Assembly (NCBI GenBank): GCA_002749535.1
Contig: MZZL01000403.1
Span: forward strand, 1,016,209 to 1,080,208
DNA: 64,000 bases
DNA from: Apophysomyces variabilis
Lineage: Eukaryota > Mucoromycota > Mucoromycetes > Mucorales > Mucoraceae
Direction: 5' to 3'
Of this stretch, positions 45,829 to 57,079 are shown piece after piece. A model generated the notes under the pieces. That model did no database searches. It was given only the letters and a program-made list of their open reading frames with translations, and was not told the DNA's origin. Both the position numbers and the translations under genes were made by a program. Each line of letters opens with the position of its first letter. Within the stretch, counting starts at the first letter, position 1.

Positions 45829-46649
45829 AAAGTTAGGGACAAGGAAGCATTAACATAAGTAGAAATATATTTTCAATACATCTCATTCAGCATTCGAACC
45901 TATACAAACTAATTTAAGTTTTTTAGCTGTTTCTTCAATAAATGGATAAAGGAGCCGCTTGCGTATTCTGCGATCTGGCGTTGGCATGACCTATGTTTAT
46001 ATTCCATAACAAAGATTAAGTTGAAGCAGAGATATGAGGAGAAAGGCTATGTATGGTACAGAGGATCGGTCTGTTTCCATAGCCAGTGTCATACGATGTC
46101 TGTTGCATTGGTAGGCCATGTTGATGATCGTTTTTAACCTATTGGTGATGATATGTTACACAAAGTGTCTGCAAGTGGTGCTCTTAATTAGCATGAATAA
46201 CCCCAGCATGCAAAAAATGCAAACGTTTACTTTTTTTATTATGTTAGGCATTTCTTCTAGTTTAACCCTACAAGCAGAAAGAAGGTGTTGCAACTGGTTG
46301 TTCTTATGCTAATTGCCTTACAATAAAATTCTCACAATACTTGATAAAGAGAATGAAACCTCTCTCTCTCGATTGAGTGGTACCTGATTATTCGCTCAGT
46401 GTCTGTCCTTGCAATTTTCCCTTAAAACTTCTATCTCCTTGCTTGACCCATTTGCTCTTGGTCTCTGTTACGATGGTGTGAACGCCGTTTGCCCACATCG
46501 GAAAGAGTTTATGTACATGCAACTGTCATCTGTTTCAGCGGATAAATGGAAATGGAAATGGAATGTCGAATCAAGTGACTTAATGAAAGAAACAGAGTAA
46601 AAAAAAACTTGTAATTATCTGCTCTAAGTTTTTCACTTGCCTGTTGTTT
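45829..46649. other. Intergenic region
   Basis: AT-rich; short frames only, no motifs. Marks the switch from housekeeping genes to the ISG12-like accessory region. Confidence 0.45.
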
Positions 46650-46679
46650 ATGCTTCATCTAAAATCTGCCATTTACGCT

Positions 46680-46877
46680 ATGAGTGGATCCGTTGGAACG
46701 GCCGTCCTCTTTACTATGAGCGTCCTGGTGTTGATATCCACGTCACTTGCTACCGAGGCTGATATTGATCGGCGCGATGAATATTACAATAACGATGCAT
46801 ACGACTGGTACGATGATTATAATGATCATCAAGTATGCAAGTATGACTATGACTCCGATGATTGCGATTTCGATTAA
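46680..46877 (+). CDS. Small secreted Asp/Tyr-rich protein (65 aa)
   Basis: Not recognised. From 46680 the frame gives a signal peptide (MSGSVGTAVLFTMSVLVLIS, about 24 residues with a small-residue cleavage region STSLA) and then about 40 mature residues rich in Asp and Tyr (EYYNNDAYDWYDDYNDHQ) with two Cys (VCKYDY and DDCDFD). An in-frame Met at 46650 would add ten residues (MLHLKSAIYA). The mature part is very acidic and could bind metal ions or coat a wall surface; that is inference. It begins the ISG12-like cluster. Being short and single-exon, it could still be a chance frame, but a signal peptide plus a strongly biased tail argues for a real gene. Confidence 0.5.
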   Translation: MSGSVGTAVLFTMSVLVLISTSLATEADIDRRDEYYNNDAYDWYDDYNDHQVCKYDYDSDDCDFD

Positions 46878-47342
46878 GCAGTAACTACGAGAGACAAAGA
46901 CAAAAGGAAGGCATGCATTCAGAAACTTGTATTAGCATGAAGAGAAAAGGAAATAAAACCGACAATGTTCTGGCTTGACAGCATCGGTAAATCTCACTCT
47001 TGGTTTGCGATGAGACATACATGCATTTTGCAATGTATAAAGTAGCGTAAGGGTGTGCCTAATCCACTATATGCCAATGGTCAAATGTTTTCTATAGCTG
47101 AACTTCTCATCCTTTCTATATCAAAAATCTAGACATCATTGCGTGATCTGCAGTTAGCAACATTGAACTTAATAAACAGCTCGCAATCGCATATAGGCTA
47201 AAAGTATAAATACGATCTTTGCAACACACTCTTGACTTAACGATCTGATCGTTACCAAAAGTGCTCATCGCTTTCATCGGTTGATATTCATCGGTTTATC
47301 GCTGTTTCAAAACTGCTTTAAAAAACGTATCTTCAAGTGGGC
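46878..47342. other. Intergenic region with TATA box for ISG12-like copy A
   Basis: Non-coding; contains TATAAATA at 47205-47212 upstream of the broken copy A. Confidence 0.45.
47205..47212 (+). promoter_or_regulatory. TATA box of ISG12-like copy A
   Basis: TATAAATA 131 nt before the first plausible ATG (47343). An intact core promoter before a broken reading frame suggests recent inactivation or a transcribed pseudogene. Confidence 0.4.
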
Positions 47343-48044
47343 ATGGAAATGCAGACCATGTCTTCCTGGAATCTCCTTTCGACCAAGCTAAGCGATAGTA
47401 TTTCTTTGGTCAAAGAATCTAGCATGAAGGTAGACAACATATCTGTGAACGGACCTTTCGGAAACTGAGATCGTGGCAAACACAGCTACCATCTTCTTTT
47501 CCTGATACGGAAACTATCCTAGTTAAACTCGGAAGCAGTGCAAAAAGTGCATGGGAAAATTTACATTGACAAGCGTGCTGTAGCTCTGTTAGATAAAGTT
47601 AAGCAAGATCCCAAAAGCGGTGCCTATGTTGTGGGTGGAGCCGCGTTGGGCATGGTAGCTCTGCCCTGTGCCGCTGTTGCTGGTCTAAGCGCCATAGGAT
47701 TCACATAGGGAGGCGTGGCCGCAGGCTCTTTGGCGGCTGGATGGATGTCAACCTTTGGTGGTGTCGTTCCTGCAGGAAGTCTTTTCGCATCACTTCAATC
47801 TGCTGGTGCTCTAGGAACTGTCTCAGGAGTGGCTCAGGTAGCAGCTTATGCCGGAGGGGTTACAGGAGGCGTCGCGGGTGTTATAGCAAGATGGGATTTT
47901 GCTGACAAAAGGCAAAGCCTGCATAATGATGATAACAGAGAAAACCACGAGATTAAGGACTGTAATATTGACAGTGAAGCTGGAGAGGAAGAAGAAGACG
48001 AGGAAAACTGGGACGCTGAGAAAAAGTTAAAGGCAGAACGCTAA
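47343..48044 (+). pseudogene. ISG12/IFI6-like protein, copy A (broken)
   Basis: A member of the hydrophobic Gly/Ala-rich family that includes interferon-inducible 6-16/ISG12 proteins. The core is clear: GAYVVGGAALGM..., AAGWMSTFGGVVPAGSLFASLQSAGALG, then an acidic tail (EAGEEEEDEENWDAEKK) as in copy B. It is interrupted by a TAG at 47706-47708 between GLSAIGFT and GGVAAGS. Upstream, the AKSAWENL helix and the core lie in different frames, with a shift near 47560. A cryptic intron (donor GTAGCT at about 47654, acceptor just after the TAG) would remove the stop in frame, but it would also delete a hydrophobic segment kept in copy B. I therefore prefer a pseudogene. The likely original start is near 47343, with a TATA box upstream. 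Confidence 0.65.
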
Positions 48045-48667
48045 CGCTGCAATAGAAGCGAAGTACAGAACTAGTAAAAACCTGATAAATTCAATTAGTG
48101 CGTCGATCATCATAGTTTTGTGCTGCAGTTCGCTTACCGGACCAAGGAAATCTTTCGTCTTCATTTTAGGAACTTAACCATCTATAGAAATCATGCTGCC
48201 TTTGGCGCTATTTCAAAGCTTTTGTCTCAGCAGTCTTTCTCACATGAATTGGGCTTTAGACAACAATATATCCCTCCAAGATTGATAGCGCTTAGCTGTC
48301 GTAGCAGCAGTACCTGACCCCCTACATTCACAAACAATCCGAAGTTGAATTAGTCAGTCTAGCTAAAAAGGCGGGCTTTTTAAAGAAATAACTATATACG
48401 TATTGACGGCCAACTTCTCTACTTAGTGCAGCATAGTTCCGTTCTACAAGAGGAAATTTGGGCTCCGAAACCCAGTCATGTTACGTAAAAACGGCAGAAG
48501 GGAGGTTCATGCATCGCACGTTCTTTTTTACCATGCCTTCTTTCGAGACCTTTGGCGCAAAAATTGACAATAAGATCAACATAATAAAGCAATACAGCGC
48601 AATGGTAAAATTCATATGTGGCTAAACTTGTTGGGCTAACTCTTATCACATCAAAAAGTTGCCATTC
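48045..48667. other. Intergenic region between ISG12-like copies A and B
   Basis: No gene seen. Contains the putative promoter of copy B; no strong TATA box. Confidence 0.4.
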
Positions 48668-49267
48668 ATGTTTCCACGAGCAGCAGCTTACAAAGCTAAC
48701 ATCGAAGACTCTGTCAAAAATGTCTGGGAGAAGTCCAAGCTGGATAATCACGCCAAAGGTGCATGGAAAAAGATAAAAGAAAATCCTGGCACAGTTGTCT
48801 GCGTGGCTGGTGGAACTGTCGCAGGCGCTATGCTCCTTCCTACCGCGACCGTTGCTGGTCTAGGTGCCCTTGGCTTTGCCAAGACAGGTATTGTTGCCCA
48901 CTCGATAGCAGCAGCGTGGATGGCGTCATTTCATGGTGCTGTGCCCGCGGGAAGTCTGTTCGCATTTTTGCAATCGGCAGGCACTCTTGGGACTGCATCT
49001 GGATTGGCACATGCTGCCGCTTATACAGGCGGTGCGGCAGGAGCAGCGACAGGGTTTGGTGTTATGAGAAAGCAGAAGAAGGAAAAGTCTCTTGACCATA
49101 AGAAAGATGATGACGCCGAGAACGAAGAGGAAGAGGAAACTGACGAGCAGCACGAAGAGGAAGATGAGGAAGCTAGGTTTCGCCATGAACTTCAGAAGAA
49201 TATGCGTGAATATGTCGACAGCTGCCATAAGCGTTCTCTTGAAGCTTGTGTCACCCCATCTGTGTAG
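48668..49267 (+). CDS. ISG12/IFI6-like hydrophobic protein with acidic tail, copy B
   Basis: Intact single-exon frame of 199 residues. N-terminal charged helix (about residues 1-40: IEDSVKNVWEKSKLDNHAKG). Then a Gly/Ala-rich hydrophobic core of about 85 residues with the family signature (AAWMASFHGAVPAGSLFAFLQSAGTLGTASG), probably two or three membrane-inserting helices. Then about 60 residues that are extremely acidic (ENEEEEETDEQHEEEDEE), ending in a short basic-aromatic part with a Cys (SCHKRSLEACV). No signal peptide. In animals ISG12-type proteins sit in mitochondrial or ER membranes and affect apoptosis or viral replication; fungal members have no established role that I can cite. It shares core plus acidic tail with broken copy A just upstream, indicating tandem duplication. 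Confidence 0.75.
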   Translation: MFPRAAAYKANIEDSVKNVWEKSKLDNHAKGAWKKIKENPGTVVCVAGGTVAGAMLLPTATVAGLGALGFAKTGIVAHSIAAAWMASFHGAVPAGSLFAFLQSAGTLGTASGLAHAAAYTGGAAGAATGFGVMRKQKKEKSLDHKKDDDAENEEEEETDEQHEEEDEEARFRHELQKNMREYVDSCHKRSLEACVTPSV

Positions 49268-50066
49268 CAAAATGCACCAGTTATCTGAAGCTTATCAGCA
49301 GCAATGGGATGGTGACCTCGGGATACGGCAGCGACACTTTGGACTTATTCTCATTAACCTCAACCCTAAGATATGAAAGACAAACATTGGAAGCAACATG
49401 CTATCTTTGTCTCTTAATTTCGAATGACTTATCCCCAACTATTCCTTGTCCTTCAGTATGAGCTAAGAAGGATGAAAGCTCAACAAATTCCCTCTCTGTT
49501 CTTGCGTTACATATCGTCTACTAGGATGATCTGTAGTTTAAGAGAACCAGATCGTTATATATTTTGCCTTGGTTGCTTCTGTGGTTGTCTCTTCTTATCG
49601 GCCTCAAAATTGGTTCGAGACATTGCAACGTCAAAACCTGGGCCTGTTGTCTCCCCTTCCGATGCTTTACGTACGGTCTCGATAATGCGTGGTGTCATTG
49701 GACAATGAATTTGTCCAACGGTTTCTCCTACCCGTTTATCGTTATAAGCAGATTCGTTGAACCTGTTTAAGCATTGTCTTTTGCGTCTTTTGCGTTCTTT
49801 CGTACCTATGCTTAGATTGTTGCGTGAGCTCCATCCGATTGACTGATCATCACCTGATCGTGGAATATGTATTTGTATCTGAGCTGTTGGGCAGCCCAAC
49901 GAAGTGGAAGCGCACCATAAGGTCCTTTTTCTGAGTTGGACACTCCATCACTGAAAAGGAATCTCACGGCTTTAAGAGAACTTATTTAATCCATGTATCT
50001 TTTCCCTAATTCTCCTCTCTTTCTTTAACATTAGCAGTTACTGTAATGTTATCATTCAGAGTTTCT
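49268..50066. other. Intergenic region with an unexplained minus-strand frame
   Basis: A 114-codon frame at 49555-49899 (- strand) is Lys/Arg-rich in its middle (TKERKRRKRQ) and ends shortly after RQPQKQPRQ. It contains a possible in-frame 48-nt intron and looks partly protein-like, but I cannot identify it or find a convincing start. It may be a fragment of a decayed gene. Confidence 0.35.
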
Positions 50067-52105
50067 TTACTTAGGAGTACTTCTATTACAGATGTAATCT
50101 GAAGTATAACTTGTTCGATATAAAGCCCACATGAAAGATATAATGGTTCCGGGCCACAGTGAGACAATCTGCGCGACATGAAAAGTAAGAAGGTATAAAC
50201 TATTGATAACCGTAACCCTTACCTGTCCGGTCGCATCCATGTACCATGACTTGCATCCCGATGACCACACCGTTGATTGATGCGCTTTTCTCAAACCTTC
50301 TACAAACTTCTCCTGAGCCTCTTTCTTAGGCTCAAATGAAGTAATTTGATGCTTTCTCATGTATTTAACAGTTTTAATAGCAAAGTGGACTTGACTATGA
50401 GTTAATATGGAGAGATTACTAAGAGACGTATTCACATTGTCAGCGTTATTCTTACCTTTCAATCACACTCACTGCCGAGTGATGTCCAAAAGCCGATGCA
50501 GGACCAAGAAGAAGGAAAAAGTTAGGGAATCCATGAATGTTAATCGATTTATATGTCTCTGGGTATCCGTTCTTCCAAAGGTCGTTAAGCGATTGGTTGT
50601 TTCTTCCATAGACTATATAAAAGATGTTTTAGTAGAAGTGATGTATACTATATAATGATGAATATTCTACTTTGCAAGTTGCCAAGGAATCCTTGAACGC
50701 TGAAGCCTGTAGCAAGGCACAATATATCGAATTCCGTTTCATTTCCGTTTTCGCAAACAATAGTACGACCCCGAATTTCTCGAATGGCACTCCGCTCCAC
50801 TGTCACATTGGATCGGCAGAGGCTTTCTAGATACTCGTCTGACAAAGTGAGCCGCTTACAGCCTGGCAGATATTCACTGCACGGTATATTCAAGTAGATT
50901 AATTAGATAACTCAACATCTCATTACATTGCAACTCACGGGATCAGTTTGTGCGCAAGCTCACCACGGCCTTGAGCCTCGAAACGGCCAATCATGTGTTG
51001 AATAAAAAGCGAGTGCAGGTAACGAGCAATGAATGATCTCGGGTATCCAAACAAAACATAATATGTTTCGGTCTAATGTATAACTAGTGCTTTGTTAAGT
51101 GAAGAAGCAAAGTATTACGACTTGCCTTGATGAACAAGAAAGCTCGATAAAGAGAAAGTATCCATGGAAACAACCTGAATAAGGTCTTTAACCTCTCAGA
51201 ATATTTGTATTGTTTGCGAGCCATACACCATGAAGGCGTTCGTTGATAGCTAGTCAAAGAAGAAGCTGTTTGAACCAACTCGGGAATGGTTTGAACAGCA
51301 CTACGGAAATCGAGAAAAAAACCGGTTTGATTTGCTTCGTTTATATGCCAAAGTATAAATGGTCTGCTTTACCTTGGCCCATTGCCGATGACAGCCACGC
51401 GTTTATTGCTGAAATCAACAAGCGGATCCCAGCGAGCCGTATGAATAATTTTTCCCTCAAAGGTTTTAAACTGTTCGGGTGTCTTAGGCACGCGCAACGG
51501 ACCAAGTCCGGCAAACCTGGATTTAGCGAAAATTCGTTAAGTGGAGCAGTAAGGTGCAACTTTCATTGTCTTACACGTAGTCATACAAGGATGATTGGAT
51601 TTTGTCATCCCGTTGTCCTCGCCAACGCAGCTCCCATTTTTGCTTAGATTCTATCCACGCAATTTGAACTACTTCTGAATTGAATCGAGTATGGTCATAT
51701 ATCCCGTATTTTCTGGAAATATCCTGCAGATAGCGGAGAATCTCGGCTTGCGAACTGTAGCGCTCGGACCATTCTATTTGACTTTCATTTACTATTGCCT
51801 CTCGTTCTCTCCGTCTTGGACTTGCACATCACTCTTTACATACCTGGATTAACATCAAAACTATAGGAGTATAGATGGGAAGGGACATCACACGCGCAAC
51901 CAGGGTAACGGTTGTGTAACCAGGTACCGCCAACGTCTTCAGTAACCTCAAATACCTGAGCTGCGATGCCAAGTTTTATTTTTATCTGTACAGCTGCGCA
52001 TATACCGCTAAAACTAGACAAGAGGAATAAAAATGCTGTGACAGCAAGATCGATAGACATATACCCTGCACCGATCACAGCAATCGTAACGTCACAATGA
52101 GTCAT
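50067..52105 (-). CDS. Flavin-containing monooxygenase (FMO / Baeyer-Villiger type)
   Basis: FAD- and NADPH-dependent oxygenase of 497 residues. Ten exons: 52065-52105, 51844-52007, 51575-51773, 51373-51516, 51126-51300, 50939-51072, 50671-50876, 50456-50612, 50223-50394 and 50067-50168; all phases agree. The FAD motif VIGAGGGICAA is rebuilt across intron 1; then VTEDVGGTWLHNRYPGCACDVPSHLYSYSF, the family GGTWxxNRYPGxxxD stretch. The NADPH motif is VAVIGNGPSAVQ. ATGF appears near the end of the second Rossmann half (LCLATGFSVQGFLG). The intron at 51073-51125 starts GCAAGT, a GC-AG intron. The exact substrate (ketone, amine or sulfur compound) cannot be told. It lies between intact ISG12-like copy B and a Tc1/mariner element whose left end is 118 bp upstream of its start. 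Confidence 0.92.
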
Positions 52106-52222
52106 ATTGAGAAAATATAAGCTACAAGCTTTACAAAGAAAAGAAAAGAAGAGATAAACAGAAGGAAAATAATTGCGTTTCGGTTGGTGTGAACTTTAAC
52201 GTTTTGTCACATTATACGCGTA

Positions 52223-52256
52223 CAACTTTTGTCAGAAACTTTTGGCACACCATCCC
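52223..52256 (+). repeat. Left terminal inverted repeat
   Basis: Matches the reverse complement of 53756-53788 with a few mismatches; preceded by TA. Confidence 0.88.
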
Positions 52257-52389
52257 AAAAACTTGCGCACAGAAAAAATATAAGAAATTAGCACACTCCG
52301 CCAAGACAATTTGGCACACCGCCCTGCACGAAATTTCGCTCTAGTAAAAGCGAAAATTGGCACATTGGCATTAGCGCAATGTGAGCCAT

Positions 52390-53690
52390 TTATAGTGGTG
52401 TTTTATTTAAGCAATCGTCAAACTTTGAGACTGAATAACGGTAAAAACCTTTAAGATCCTCAAAATGTATGTTATTTCCAGCTTCCAAGACTCTCGAACT
52501 GAGCGTTTCTTTTTCTAAAAACTTTTCTCGTTTTAGTTTGCTTTTGCAAACTGACCAGAATTGCTCAATAGGATTGAGCTCTGGGGAATAAGGTGGTAGA
52601 TAAATGCATCCATATCCACGTCTGACGATTTCTCTTTCGATATCTGCTGCAGTGTGAATGGGTGTATTATCCATGATTATATAATTGCCTTTGAATTGCC
52701 CATGTTGATCAAGGATATCCAACGTACTTCTTACAAAGTTGATGTAGTGTCCTGTAACTGTACCACCCGTACTCTTCACCTTGCTGTTGCCTACCGTTTT
52801 TCTTTTCTTGGAGGGAGCGTAAGTTCGTCTTACCCTCACATTAATAACGCCATATACAGAAACAGCTCCTAAAATTGTCGTAGTTTTCGCTCTCGTTTCA
52901 GGTACTATAACCTCAGCACGACTGCCTTTCTTTGACCAAGCCATAGTCCTTTTGAGATTGATATGAAAAGCTGACTCGTCAATAAAGACAAAGTTACTAA
53001 AGTAATCCATGTCTGTCTGCATCCATCTAACAACCCAGTCATATCTTGCATCAATAACTTCGACTCAATTTCTGTTCTTCGAATGAAAATGAGCTTTCTT
53101 AAAAGAAAGACTACACTTTTCGGTCATAAACTCGTACAAGCTCGTCTTAGAGATGCGCAAGTCCATGAACTGTTCAGTTAGATTTTCCATTGCTTGCTCC
53201 AATTATTGCTGAGGGATTCTCGTCAATAAACTTTATCAGATGCTCTTTGTGCGTGTCATTCAAAAGAGCTGGCCGGCCTGTTTGCTTCGTATATTGCGTA
53301 GGCTCAATTTCATCATCAGGGTTTTCTTGATCTTTCTAAACCCATCCATAGGCAGTTACGTGCTATGCCCATCTGTTTCGCAGCTTTACCAGCCGTTAGG
53401 CCCTTCTCATAGATGAGAAAGAAAAAGTGCCCCTTTTGATCAGCGGTGTAGCGCTTGTAAGGCTGCCTTTTCTTTCCATCATTTAGCGTCTCTTCGGTAG
53501 ATTACTACTCTTTGACCGTGTTTTTCGCGTTCAACAATCGCTCGGGTGATTTAAGGTCCAAGTACTGATTGTAATCCGTGATACAATCAAGAGGAAATGC
53601 TGCTTCATCGACATCCATTTCCAGCGGTTCGTGGCCAGCTTCATCCACGGCTTTTCCTTGTCCGTCTTCGAAGTAAAACTGGTATTACAT
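52390..53690 (-). pseudogene. Tc1/mariner transposase, N-terminal half decayed
   Basis: The catalytic half is open from 53022 to 52390 (210 codons). It has the DDE signature: FIDESAFH (first Asp), IIMDNTPIH (second Asp) and PYSPELNPIEQFW (Glu), the DD34E/DD-E arrangement of the Tc1/mariner and IS630-like group. Upstream, a helix-turn-helix-like part (KRQPYKRYTADQKGHF, GLTAGKAAKQMGIA, TGRPALLNDTHKEHL) is still readable but scattered over different frames. An in-frame TGA at 53065-53067 (after HFHSKNRN) separates the halves. The element is therefore not autonomous, though its ends could still be mobilised in trans by a related transposase. Confidence 0.85.
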
Positions 53691-53755
53691 TTTTATTGAA
53701 CAAAATATAACAGTATCGTAAAGTGTGCTGAATGATATTCAAGGGCGAAGTTTAT

Positions 53756-53788
53756 GGGAGGGTGTGCCAAAAGTTTCTGAAAAAAGTG
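53756..53788 (-). repeat. Right terminal inverted repeat
   Basis: Inverted counterpart of 52223-52256; followed by TA. Confidence 0.88.
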
Positions 53789-53790
53789 TA

Positions 53791-54763
53791 GTTAAGCGGT
53801 GTCTGGACGACAATCGTTGACTTTCCGTATAACTCACAGCTTCAGAAAAACATAGCAGTTTTTATTGAAACCATATAGTATCTTAAATAGCTTCTACGCT
53901 TGATTCTGAAAATATTACATAACGACAAGAACAAACAGTCGAATATATTATGAACTGCGTTTAAATCATTAGTTCTGCCTAATTCAAGCAAAGCTAAAAC
54001 ATATGGCATTTATAATTCATGAATCTATGAACGAAATAAACAACAGGCTTAGTTGATCCATCACTGTGTAAACTTCAAGACTTAGTTAACGGGCGTACTT
54101 TGTTTACAGTTTGCGCTTATTGTCTAAGGGTCCCAAGCTGCAGAAAGTTAAGTCTCGTATGAATATTACAAAACGTCTCGTAAGCCATACGCACGTAATA
54201 CTCATTTCATTTCCTTCCACTGCCTGAAAGAACTTCATGCAGGTGTATTCAGGGAAAAAGTTCGAGTCTCCAGTCCTACTGTGTCACATAGGTGTAACGG
54301 CAGGCGTAAAATAAAATCGCGTCCAGTAATTCTAAAATATTCACTGGTTTAGTTTCTTTGAGGCAGACGACGGAATGGGACATTATCTGAACGATGTAGG
54401 GGGCACCCTATCCTTGAACAACCGTTCATAAATCTTCAATGCCTAAAGGTCAAGTGAGCACATCGACCTCATCATTCACAGAAACCTTAGAGGCTTCTTC
54501 CGAGCCACGCTTCGCATTATTGAGTTTCTTTCAACATAGATCAATGTTTCCTGAAGGAGCAGAGATAAGCATGCACTCGTTCTGTTCGAGGAAAATGCAT
54601 CACCGTATCCTGTTGGCAGGAAGTAGTTTTTTTTTAGTTATCCATATCTCCACTAATAAAAGGGATTAGTAAGCTCGATGATGTCCTTTTCTCTTCCTCA
54701 TACATTCCCATTCAATTTATCTTAGACGGTGTATATTGATCCCAAAATCATCGCTTAACTTCT
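53791..54763. other. Intergenic region between transposon and ISG12-like copy C
   Basis: AT-rich; one 76-codon + strand frame at 54439-54669 with no motif. Nothing supportable. Confidence 0.45.
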
Positions 54764-55116
54764 AGCCGGAGGCAGCTTGGGCATCCTGATAACTGCCGCC
54801 CGCCGTCTTGACTGCGCTGCAAACACTTGGTTTCACTGGCACGCTCCGTGGTCACTGCATGGATGTCCACATACGCTGCCACCGTTCTTGCCGATGGAAT
54901 CTTTGTCATTCTTCAGTCAGCAGGTGCTTTTATGAGTGTCGCAGGAACTGCCCAGGTTGGAACTGCCGTTGGAATCCTGTCAGCGGTACTGGCCAAGGAA
55001 CGACTGTAAATGGTTACAAACGCCGCTATGTATACGAAGGAAAAGCAGGTCCTCACTGTCACTACGATGATGACCACATCTGGTTCCTTAATTATCATCA
55101 GGATGATCTATACTAG
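54764..55116 (+). pseudogene. ISG12/IFI6-like protein, copy C (multiply frameshifted remnant)
   Basis: Family core is recognisable in pieces: AGGSLGILITAA, then in another frame AVLTALQTLGFTG, then in a third ARSVVTAWMSTYAATVLADGIF and VILQSAGAFMSVAGTAQVG. At least two frameshifts separate these, and no N-terminal part or start was found. After the core, a further frame reads a short Tyr/Asp/His-rich tail (EGKAGPHCHYDDDH, NYHQDDLY) reminiscent of the Asp/Tyr-rich small secreted protein at 46680-46877. This is an older, dead copy. Confidence 0.6.
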
Positions 55117-55339
55117 AAGCTACTTTGAGTCAATTTCTGACTTTATGTATCATTCTTATCATTGTTTTTCAGAACGTTGTTTGGGGGGTCAAATCTCAAT
55201 TAAAGTTTAGTTCAACAAACCAAAGATGTTACAAGTATCATAAAGCCGAGGGTGACTCGTGAATAGCTTAGCTCTTTTTGATTGCGCCTATTGTTTTGCT
55301 CTGCTCTTTTTCTTTTTCTTGTTACTGGCTGTTATTGCT
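55117..55339. other. Short gap before ISG12-like copy D
   Basis: Likely promoter of copy D; T-rich immediately before the start codon. No other feature. Confidence 0.4.
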
Positions 55340-55980
55340 ATGACCTCTCGCTCTATCACTTATCTCATACGGCTCCTTATTGTTTTGGTTGCCTTGAGCT
55401 GCGTCGTTCGAGCCGTACCGCTCGATTCTGAAGACGTGAATCAGGTACTAATAACAGCTCTCCTGAAGATGTTAAAGAATAGACGTAGACTACGTTTCCT
55501 TCTTTCGATGATACACCTTCCCTCAGTGACATCTGGGAAAATGCAAAAAGCCTTGTGAACGTCACTGACATTCTTAGCAAGATTGAGCCATATGAACCGC
55601 AGATTATATCCAGCGCAGTTGGGTTCACTGCTGGAGCTGTCGGGGTGACAGCGGTTTTGCTTGTCATCCCGTTGGCGTTAGGCGTAGCTTTAGCTGCTGT
55701 TGGGTTTACAGCTGTAGGGGTTCGTGCTGCGTCCTTTGCTGCTTGCTGCCAAAGTTTGTGTTATGGTGGCTACATTGCTGTAGGAAGCATCTTTGCCATC
55801 CTACAGTCCTTGGGTACCAAATCCGTACCTCTTTGTTGGAATCCCGTTACTATCATGCTTGGTTCGGTCGTCGGTGGCATTGCAGGTGGCTATTACGGTT
55901 TCCACAACACATGGATTGCTGATATGGTCCTCGACTGGCTCGATGGAGGAAACTCAAGCCTTGGTCCCATTTTTTCATAA
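55340..55980 (+). CDS. ISG12/IFI6-like protein with signal peptide, copy D
   Basis: Two exons, 55340-55444 and 55489-55980, with a 44-nt intron containing a TACTAA branch-like motif; 198 residues. Starts with a signal peptide (SITYLIRLLIVLVALSCVVRA), then an acidic linker and a helix (DIWENAKSLVNVTDILSKIE) parallel to the charged N-terminal helix of copy B. The hydrophobic core follows (AVGFTAGAVGVTAVLLVIPL, GVRAASFAACCQSLCYGGYI, VGSIFAILQSLGT), closest to the canonical family pattern (AAxxQSxxYGGxVxxGSxFAxLQSxG). The tail is short, aromatic and acidic (FHNTWIADMVLDWLDGG) instead of Glu-rich. The signal peptide implies entry into the secretory pathway, unlike copy B. Reading through the intron gives a truncated protein, so the splice is required. 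Confidence 0.78.
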
Positions 55981-56402
55981 TTTTTCATGGATTCGTAAAG
56001 CCGTCTATTATTTCTAACAGATGATTATTTTCTTTGTGATACAATCTTTGGATGATAAAGAAGTTTGCCAGCAGTACAGAATGCCTTGACGTTTGAAACC
56101 TTCAGTTTTTTTTTTCAATTGACTTTCTATTGGTTTTATTGTCGCTTCATCATTGAATAAGAGAGCGTTCCGAAAACTGTCAAACACGAACCGTCAGTCA
56201 ACAAGCCACCGTCAAACGTCGTTCAATACAAGGACACTGCCTTTGGGTTTGAATGATCTGGTATTTAGTATGGCAGTAAGCGACCAATCGTAGTGTACAG
56301 CGGAATTTGAAAATGGCGAGTCTTTCACCTATCTTGAGTGGGTGATGAGAGCCGTATTTTTCTTTCCTTTTCTTACTTAGGTATTCGCTGCGCAAGGAAA
56401 AC
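55981..56402. other. Intergenic region before SUB1
   Basis: Downstream flank of copy D and promoter of SUB1; no gene seen. Confidence 0.45.
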
Positions 56403-57079
56403 ATGCCACGAACATCCAAATATGTGGAGGACTCTGATAATGAAGATGAATATAAGGTTGGACAGGACCAGATACTGTTACAAAATAACTCCCGCGAGGT
56501 CCTCATACGAAAACAACTTCATTAGCCTGGAAAGGAAATAACAACCAAAGAAGAAGAAGAAGACTTTGAGGAGATAGAAGACTCTCCTGTAGATATTTAC
56601 GCGTATATATCCTGTTTGGATTTCTCATGTAATTGCATGTTAGAAAGAAAAAAAGGCAAAGGTTGCAGACAAAAAGCGTAAGAGAGAAGAAGAACCAGCA
56701 GCTAGCACGTCGAGCGGCTCCGACAAAGAATTCGTATTTCAAGTGAGCAGAGTCGTGTCTACTCCCTATCTGCATACTTATATTGACGCGCTATTTGCTA
56801 AATTTAGCTGTCGAACAAACGACGAGTAACGGTGAAGGCATTCAAGAATGGTGGGCCGATGGTGGACATTCGAGAAACTTACAATGACAAAAACACGGGA
56901 GAACTTAGATACGGAAAAGGTAGGAAAGCTGCTGGTTAAAGTCAGGAAGCATAAAAAAAAAGGCAGATAAGTTTTGCGTCATGACTCACTTTTACTCAGG
57001 TATTTGTCTACCCTTGGCTCAATGGAAAAAATTGAAAGAATACATGACGGAAATTGATGCCGCCATCGATCAATTATGA
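56403..57079 (+). CDS. SUB1: Transcriptional coactivator Sub1 / PC4 (p15)
   Basis: Single-stranded-DNA-binding nuclear coactivator of RNA polymerase II. Exons 56403-56456, 56526-56588, 56644-56742, 56808-56919 and 57000-57079 give 135 residues. The N-terminus is acidic and Lys/Glu-rich (VEDSDNEDEY, KRKREEEE). The PC4 DNA-binding domain occupies the second half (LSNKRRVTVKAFKNG, VDIRETYNDKNTGEL, GICLPLAQWKKLKEYM). Exon 2 is an all-acidic 21-residue segment. AATAAA follows the stop by 48 nt. Confidence 0.94.

Follow-up and report, generated by a model that had tools for sequence, protein, structure and literature searches.

What does a cluster of genes resembling ISG12/IFI6, a family known mostly for animal interferon effectors, do in a fungus, a kind of organism in which interferon is not known? 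The cluster in question lies in a 64,000-nucleotide stretch of the Apophysomyces variabilis genome (positions 1,016,209 to 1,080,208 of contig MZZL01000403.1, hereafter the window), where four Ifi-6-16-like sequences, termed A to D, occupy one strand between positions 47343 and 55980. As the initial annotation had it, and as Pfam scores, reading frames, and stop codons confirm, two of these are intact (B and D) and two are broken (A and C). The answer that we favor, with a probability of roughly 0.45, is a role in membrane stress at organelle or secretory membranes, which is a guess drawn from the animal relatives. Beneath it lies a firmer result, namely that this fungus carries a small family of Ifi-6-16-like genes that is both duplicating and decaying.

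The family assignment is carried by the Pfam model Ifi-6-16 (PF06140; cut-off 29.1 bits), which B and D exceed (Table 1), as do the piece of A past its internal stop (34.8 bits) and two further genes located outside the window, E (36.9 bits) and F (36.0 bits). Applied to all four cluster copies, as had been proposed at the outset, the model fell short of its cut-off for C and gave no match for the piece of A preceding the stop (47538-47705). Among solved structures, human IFI27L1 (PDB 2loq) was the top sequence match for D (E-value 2.7e-5), E (2.4e-4), and B (0.0016), and it was also the top match for F, at an E-value of 0.05 that is not significant alone; a seven-row profile reached 3.4e-11. 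Seven motif columns are invariant in a 17-row alignment that includes animal proteins (P0012, one of the 14 proteins found, was left out), and both the core domain and this motif are common to the fungal copies and to IFI6, IFI27, IFI27L1, and IFI27L2. It is practically certain, as far as sequence can tell, that the fungal genes belong to the Ifi-6-16/ISG12 family.

Searching the whole assembly (38.7 Mb in 126 contigs, with exons found singly and counts that are lower bounds) with the Pfam model returned five places, A, B, and D in the window and E and F outside it, and the D protein returned the same five. The B protein gave a weak match at copy C (E-value 0.039) and missed gene E. Gene E is found at C89:239982, 0.8 Mb off on the contig that carries the window, and gene F on contig C81. 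The intact copies are thus B, D, E, and F, half of which are outside the cluster. Because two of the four cluster copies are broken and two further copies lie elsewhere, the birth and death of genes suggested in the initial annotation is upheld.

The six copies very probably sort into two types, A/B/C and D/E/F, and the difference in targeting that had been claimed for the cluster is borne out, and extended, by two subfamilies with different first exons. The splice models of B, D, E, and F are based on GT-AG sites, reading frame, and comparison of paralogues, not on transcripts, and place a phase-0 intron in each of the four genes; that the introns of B and D are both phase 0, with LP soon after, is suggestive, and only that, of common ancestry. 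Within the first type, gene B was originally given a start at 48668, but the splice model puts it at 48533, 135 bases upstream, by way of an extra exon and intron. P0001 of A. ossiformis shares this first exon (21 of 24 residues, counted by eye), and the closest protein to gene B is EC973_008547 of Apophysomyces ossiformis, with 96% identity across the whole query. The last 60 residues of B hold 22 D/E and 9 K/R, and those of copy A hold 19 D/E and 9 K/R. Copy A is broken twice, as its B-homologous stretches lie in different frames and an in-frame TAG (47706-47708) falls within the domain, while in copy C about 60 homologous residues are left; over 59 codons, it shares 44% identity with the A piece.

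The second type has a different anatomy. Gene D is an intact two-exon gene with an intron of 44 nucleotides, and the first exon of D, E, and F alike has exactly 35 codons, ends in NQ, is signal-like, and is followed by the phase-0 intron. Hydropathy in exon 1 of D is 2.39 over 19 residues and 3.33 over 12 residues, compared with best 12-residue values of 0.33 in B and 0.73 in the first open reading frame (ORF) of A, the starts of which are not signal-like. Exon 2 opens, at residue 36 in all three genes, with a 34-residue repeat that approximates IVLPSLDDIPSFDDTWEKVKG and continues into a variable part often containing NVTDIL. Gene D has one copy of this repeat, gene F has two, of which the second is incomplete, and gene E has six, with the fourth shortened, and a genome search with the repeat region of gene E matched only E, F, and D. 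An NVT sequon stands ahead of the domain in all three. The frame of gene E (L004:701-1755) stops at a TAA, and its match to D extends slightly beyond this point.

Upstream of D, E, and F there is a 14-base sequence, AATTAAAGTTTAGT, that starts 109 to 142 bases ahead of the ATG: at -142 in D and F, which share 21 identical bases (AATTAAAGTTTAGTTCAACAA), and at -109 in E, which shares 14. The 14-mer has seven exact copies in the genome, three of them before D, E, and F, against one for the reversed control, and the 21-mer occurs exactly only twice, before D and F and each time at -142, and in four places when up to three mismatches are allowed (reversed control, one). The other four copies of AATTAAAGTTTAGT were surrounded by ORFs of at least 45 residues in which no family member or repeat was recognized by eye, in agreement with the genome searches by Pfam model and by repeat region, and were taken as chance given the single hit of the reversed control. 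This putative promoter box was spotted by inspection and not predicted beforehand, in a sample of three genes, which is few. Best-match scores between the upstream regions were 21 for D/F, 15 for E/F, and 14 for D/E, compared with a maximum of 13 when the upstream DNA of D and F was put through 200 single-base shuffles; the D/E match alone is marginal because 14 is set against a shuffle best of 13. Across 250 upstream bases, identity among D, E, and F is 51-57%, with shuffle means of 44-46%, and removal of the box brings D/E to background, with 21 of 100 shuffles reaching it. The box was not found before A or B, and an apparent match between the upstream regions of D and C was dropped, as a single stretch of DNA had been counted twice. 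The box is the best-conserved stretch within upstream DNA that retains some other likeness, and it is the sole regulatory hint for D, E, and F.

Nonsynonymous (dN) and synonymous (dS) divergence was estimated by NG86 at 0.374 and 1.105 for D/E, 0.466 and 1.491 for D/F, 0.405 and 1.311 for E/F, and 0.494 and 1.589 for the downstream piece of A and B, giving dN/dS of 0.31-0.34 for all of these pairs; YN00 gave 0.45 for D/E, 0.39 for D/F, and 0.31 for E/F. These proteins have been under purifying selection in the past. The corresponding dN and dS values were 0.494 and 1.547 for copy C and the A piece, and, with dS saturated, 0.544 and 3.032 for the upstream piece of A and B and 0.574 and 3.296 for C and B. 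Because such ratios are pairwise averages, the death of copy A may be recent, or errors of assembly may account for its breaks. In a phylogeny, a tree built from 18 domain sequences, from which P0004 and P0012 of the 14 proteins found were left out, D, E, and F grouped at 99/97 and A, B, and C fell with P0001 at 86/82, under the support mark and with C as a long branch; nine of its 15 inner branches are open, including those where both groups join the other sequences.

Beyond this genome, a protein-database search with B found three proteins, and the seven-row alignment found 13 among the 8000 best candidates scored, including one from Apophysomyces and four from animals (Exaiptasia, Bradysia, Nucella, and Plakobranchus). 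Exon 2 of D found no database protein in this search, which requires shared five-residue words. The distribution of the family in fungi is not mapped by these searches because of that requirement and because the 8000 best candidates were scored. One scan of the genome_contigs database with the animal protein P0005 found no prokaryote relatives; a scan of this kind picks up none but close relatives and is no demonstration of absence. In the literature on the family in fungi, searched with most subscription papers out of reach, there was a single mention in the accessible text, a table row for KKA29592.1 of Thielaviopsis punctulata (PMC10051545). That protein, an entry in a fungal secretome, carries PF06140 as the copies here do, but it differs in having a Ferritin_2 partner domain, and the row simply lists it as predicted to be secreted (PMC10051545). 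Compared with the family at large, the acidic tail is a feature of A and B, and the 34-residue repeat of D, E, and F was not seen, by eye, among the 14 proteins found. An N-terminal signal followed by the membrane domain, as in D, E, and F, is also the arrangement of IFI6 and of P0006, P0010, P0011, and P0013, which are signal-like by eye; unlike these, D, E, and F have a separate 35-codon signal exon of their own and a repeat stalk.

From these features, a working model can be drawn in which the Gly/Ala-rich helices of these small proteins would be expected to insert in membranes. Proteins of the B type would be made in the cytosol and then enter an internal membrane, either of mitochondria or of the endoplasmic reticulum (ER), with the acidic tail remaining outside. 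Those of the D/E/F type, if spliced as predicted, would enter the ER via their putative signal peptides and present a lumenal stalk, probably N-glycosylated, built from one to six copies of the 34-residue repeat, ahead of the membrane domain, and D, E, and F would probably be controlled together through the common promoter box. The likeliest role for both types is at organelle or secretory membranes, the integrity of which they would adjust under stress in the way reported for IFI6. We lean toward such work at internal membranes under stress because the animal family is tied to ER membranes and to the control of apoptosis at mitochondria (PMC4526556, PMC8228428), IFI6 itself having been placed with BiP at the ER as well as at mitochondria (PMC8228428, PMC4526556).

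Several results weigh against this model. Membrane topology is unsettled because just one to three windows within the domain pass the hydropathy threshold (one in B, two in E, and three each in D and F). F was the one copy with GxxxG enriched over shuffles (p 0.022, against 0.34 in B, 0.62 in D, and 1.0 in E), and small-xxx-small was enriched in just two, B (0.03) and F (0.0065), with the tested stretch of E misplaced in both cases. A glycine-zipper idea was set aside, as this support is uneven between copies. AlphaFold models of exon 2 of D and B are helical but of low confidence (mean predicted local distance difference test scores of 62.3 and 61.0), and Foldseek comparison of these weak models with the PDB gave nothing with an E-value below 7. 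The likeness of D/F and E/F upstream DNA persists when the box is removed, with 1 and 0 of 100 shuffles reaching it, and part of the upstream likeness may therefore reflect plain descent. No ER-retention signal was seen by eye at the ends of D, E, and F, which would suit secretion as well. Finally, an annotated match in A. ossiformis was found for B and none for D, although annotation tends to overlook short genes.

This last point, with the same caution about short genes, also speaks against a plain housekeeping function in membranes, free of any part in conflict, in which case the cluster and its decay would reflect tandem duplication and drift. We consider this rather unlikely. It would accommodate the purifying selection and the location of two of the four intact copies outside the cluster, and conflict is not needed for duplication and pseudogenes; however, with its changes in copy number, its expanded repeat, and its two types of first exon, the family looks more fluid than typical housekeeping genes. 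It is also possible, but unlikely, that D, E, and F are secreted membrane-active proteins directed, outside the cell, at rival fungi or at bacteria, in which the repeat stalk would serve as a spacer or wall anchor. The signal-like exon and the failure to see an ER-retention signal would fit this, as would the repeat numbers of one, six, and two in D, E, and F, the restriction of the promoter box, which A and B do not share, and the signal-like starts, by eye, of P0006, P0010, P0011, and P0013. Nevertheless, ER-resident members use signal peptides too, IFI6 among them, the hydrophobic domain points to proteins that stay in the producer's own membranes, and none of the relatives met has a reported antimicrobial action.

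Table 1. Coordinates of the family members and neighboring features in the window
Feature	Position	Strand	Remarks
Gene B exon 1	48533..48604	+	24 codons, not signal-like; splice model
Gene B intron	48605-48658	+	Splice model
Gene B exon 2	48659..49267	+	Ifi-6-16 domain and acidic tail; PF06140 45.4 bits; genome match without stops
Gene D exon 1	55340..55444	+	35 codons, signal-peptide-like; splice model
Gene D exon 2	55489..55980	+	One 34-residue repeat, NVT sequon, Ifi-6-16 domain (PF06140 44.5 bits, 55540-55977)
Putative promoter box AATTAAAGTTTAGTTCAACAA	55198..55218	+	Upstream of D; common to F (21/21) and, for the first 14 bases, to E
Copy A	47343..48044	+	Broken relative of B; acidic tail still open; pieces searched apart
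Copy C	54827..55009	+	Decayed A/B-type fragment; PF06140 14.0 bits, below cut-off
65-residue Asp/Tyr-rich ORF	46680..46877	+	Hydrophobic signal-like start
FMO-like flavoprotein gene pieces	50648..52105	-	Between B and the transposon; FMO name is a reading of ORFs
Tc1/mariner-type transposon	52225..53787	-	40-nucleotide inverted ends, DDE_3 transposase

At one edge of the cluster, the initial annotation had described a secreted, Asp/Tyr-rich companion peptide. The ORF is present, its start is signal-like, and it may be a gene, but its adjacent position is all that connects it with the family, and a genome search with the 65-residue peptide matched only itself. Asp and Tyr make up 54% of its tail. 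When 40 sequences of 64 kb were simulated with a third-order Markov model, each contained a mean of 0.325 ORFs that were signal-like and hydrophilic, and none was equally Asp/Tyr-rich, under criteria chosen after the peptide had been seen. A dibasic RR site was noted by eye ahead of the acidic part. A link between this peptide and the out-of-frame tail of copy C was examined by eye and found to be unsupported.

The Tc1/mariner-type element parts B from C and D, with the FMO-like gene on one side of it and C on the other. A TA is present close to both of its borders. Elsewhere in the genome, with the best 40 of 62 candidates scored, there are at least five long copies (91-95% identity), one two-piece copy on C93, and many older relatives. 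The FMO-like gene matches PF13450 at 51839-52105 (24.9 bits; cut-off 21.9), and its piece at 50651-50893 has no Pfam match; some 120 bases separate the apparent start of the gene from the transposon end. The Pfam scan also identified one exon on each flank of the cluster, of a guanylate kinase upstream and of an aminotransferase downstream. No conflict domain was found by Pfam in the ORFs selected for scanning within the locus and among its neighbors, an Rfam scan of 46000-57000 returned nothing at gathering level, and a PADLOC scan of five proteins, with a library of prokaryote defence systems, gave one weak match, of Cas8b to the hydrophobic part of D (E-value 0.0047).

It is highly improbable that A to D and the acidic peptide act together as an immune, conflict, or cell-death locus, a reading, of low standing, that draws on animal family biology (PMC4526556, PMC8228428), on duplication with gene birth and death, and on the precedent for an old antiviral-type family in fungi set by Mx-like proteins, another interferon-linked family, which have been described in fungi including Mucoromycota (PMC11789081), since two intact members (E and F) lie elsewhere, A and C are broken, the peptide is linked by position, the FMO-like gene and the transposon interrupt the cluster, and PADLOC, with its library of prokaryote defence, gave nothing beyond the weak match on D.

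A wider reading, which we consider quite improbable, would make D, E, and F a co-regulated, exported branch with an adjustable repeat stalk, employed in fungal defence or symbiont control, and would derive the animal interferon effectors, as one offshoot, from a membrane-defence family of far greater age. Mycetohabitans endobacteria, which are present in two Apophysomyces isolates (PMC13367373), would be a conceivable target if the defence reading of D, E, and F were true. The value of the locus for the family may lie in its two types: in a fungus with both a cytosolic type and an exported, repeat-stalk type with a promoter box of its own, the ancestral role of the family would be testable without interferon.

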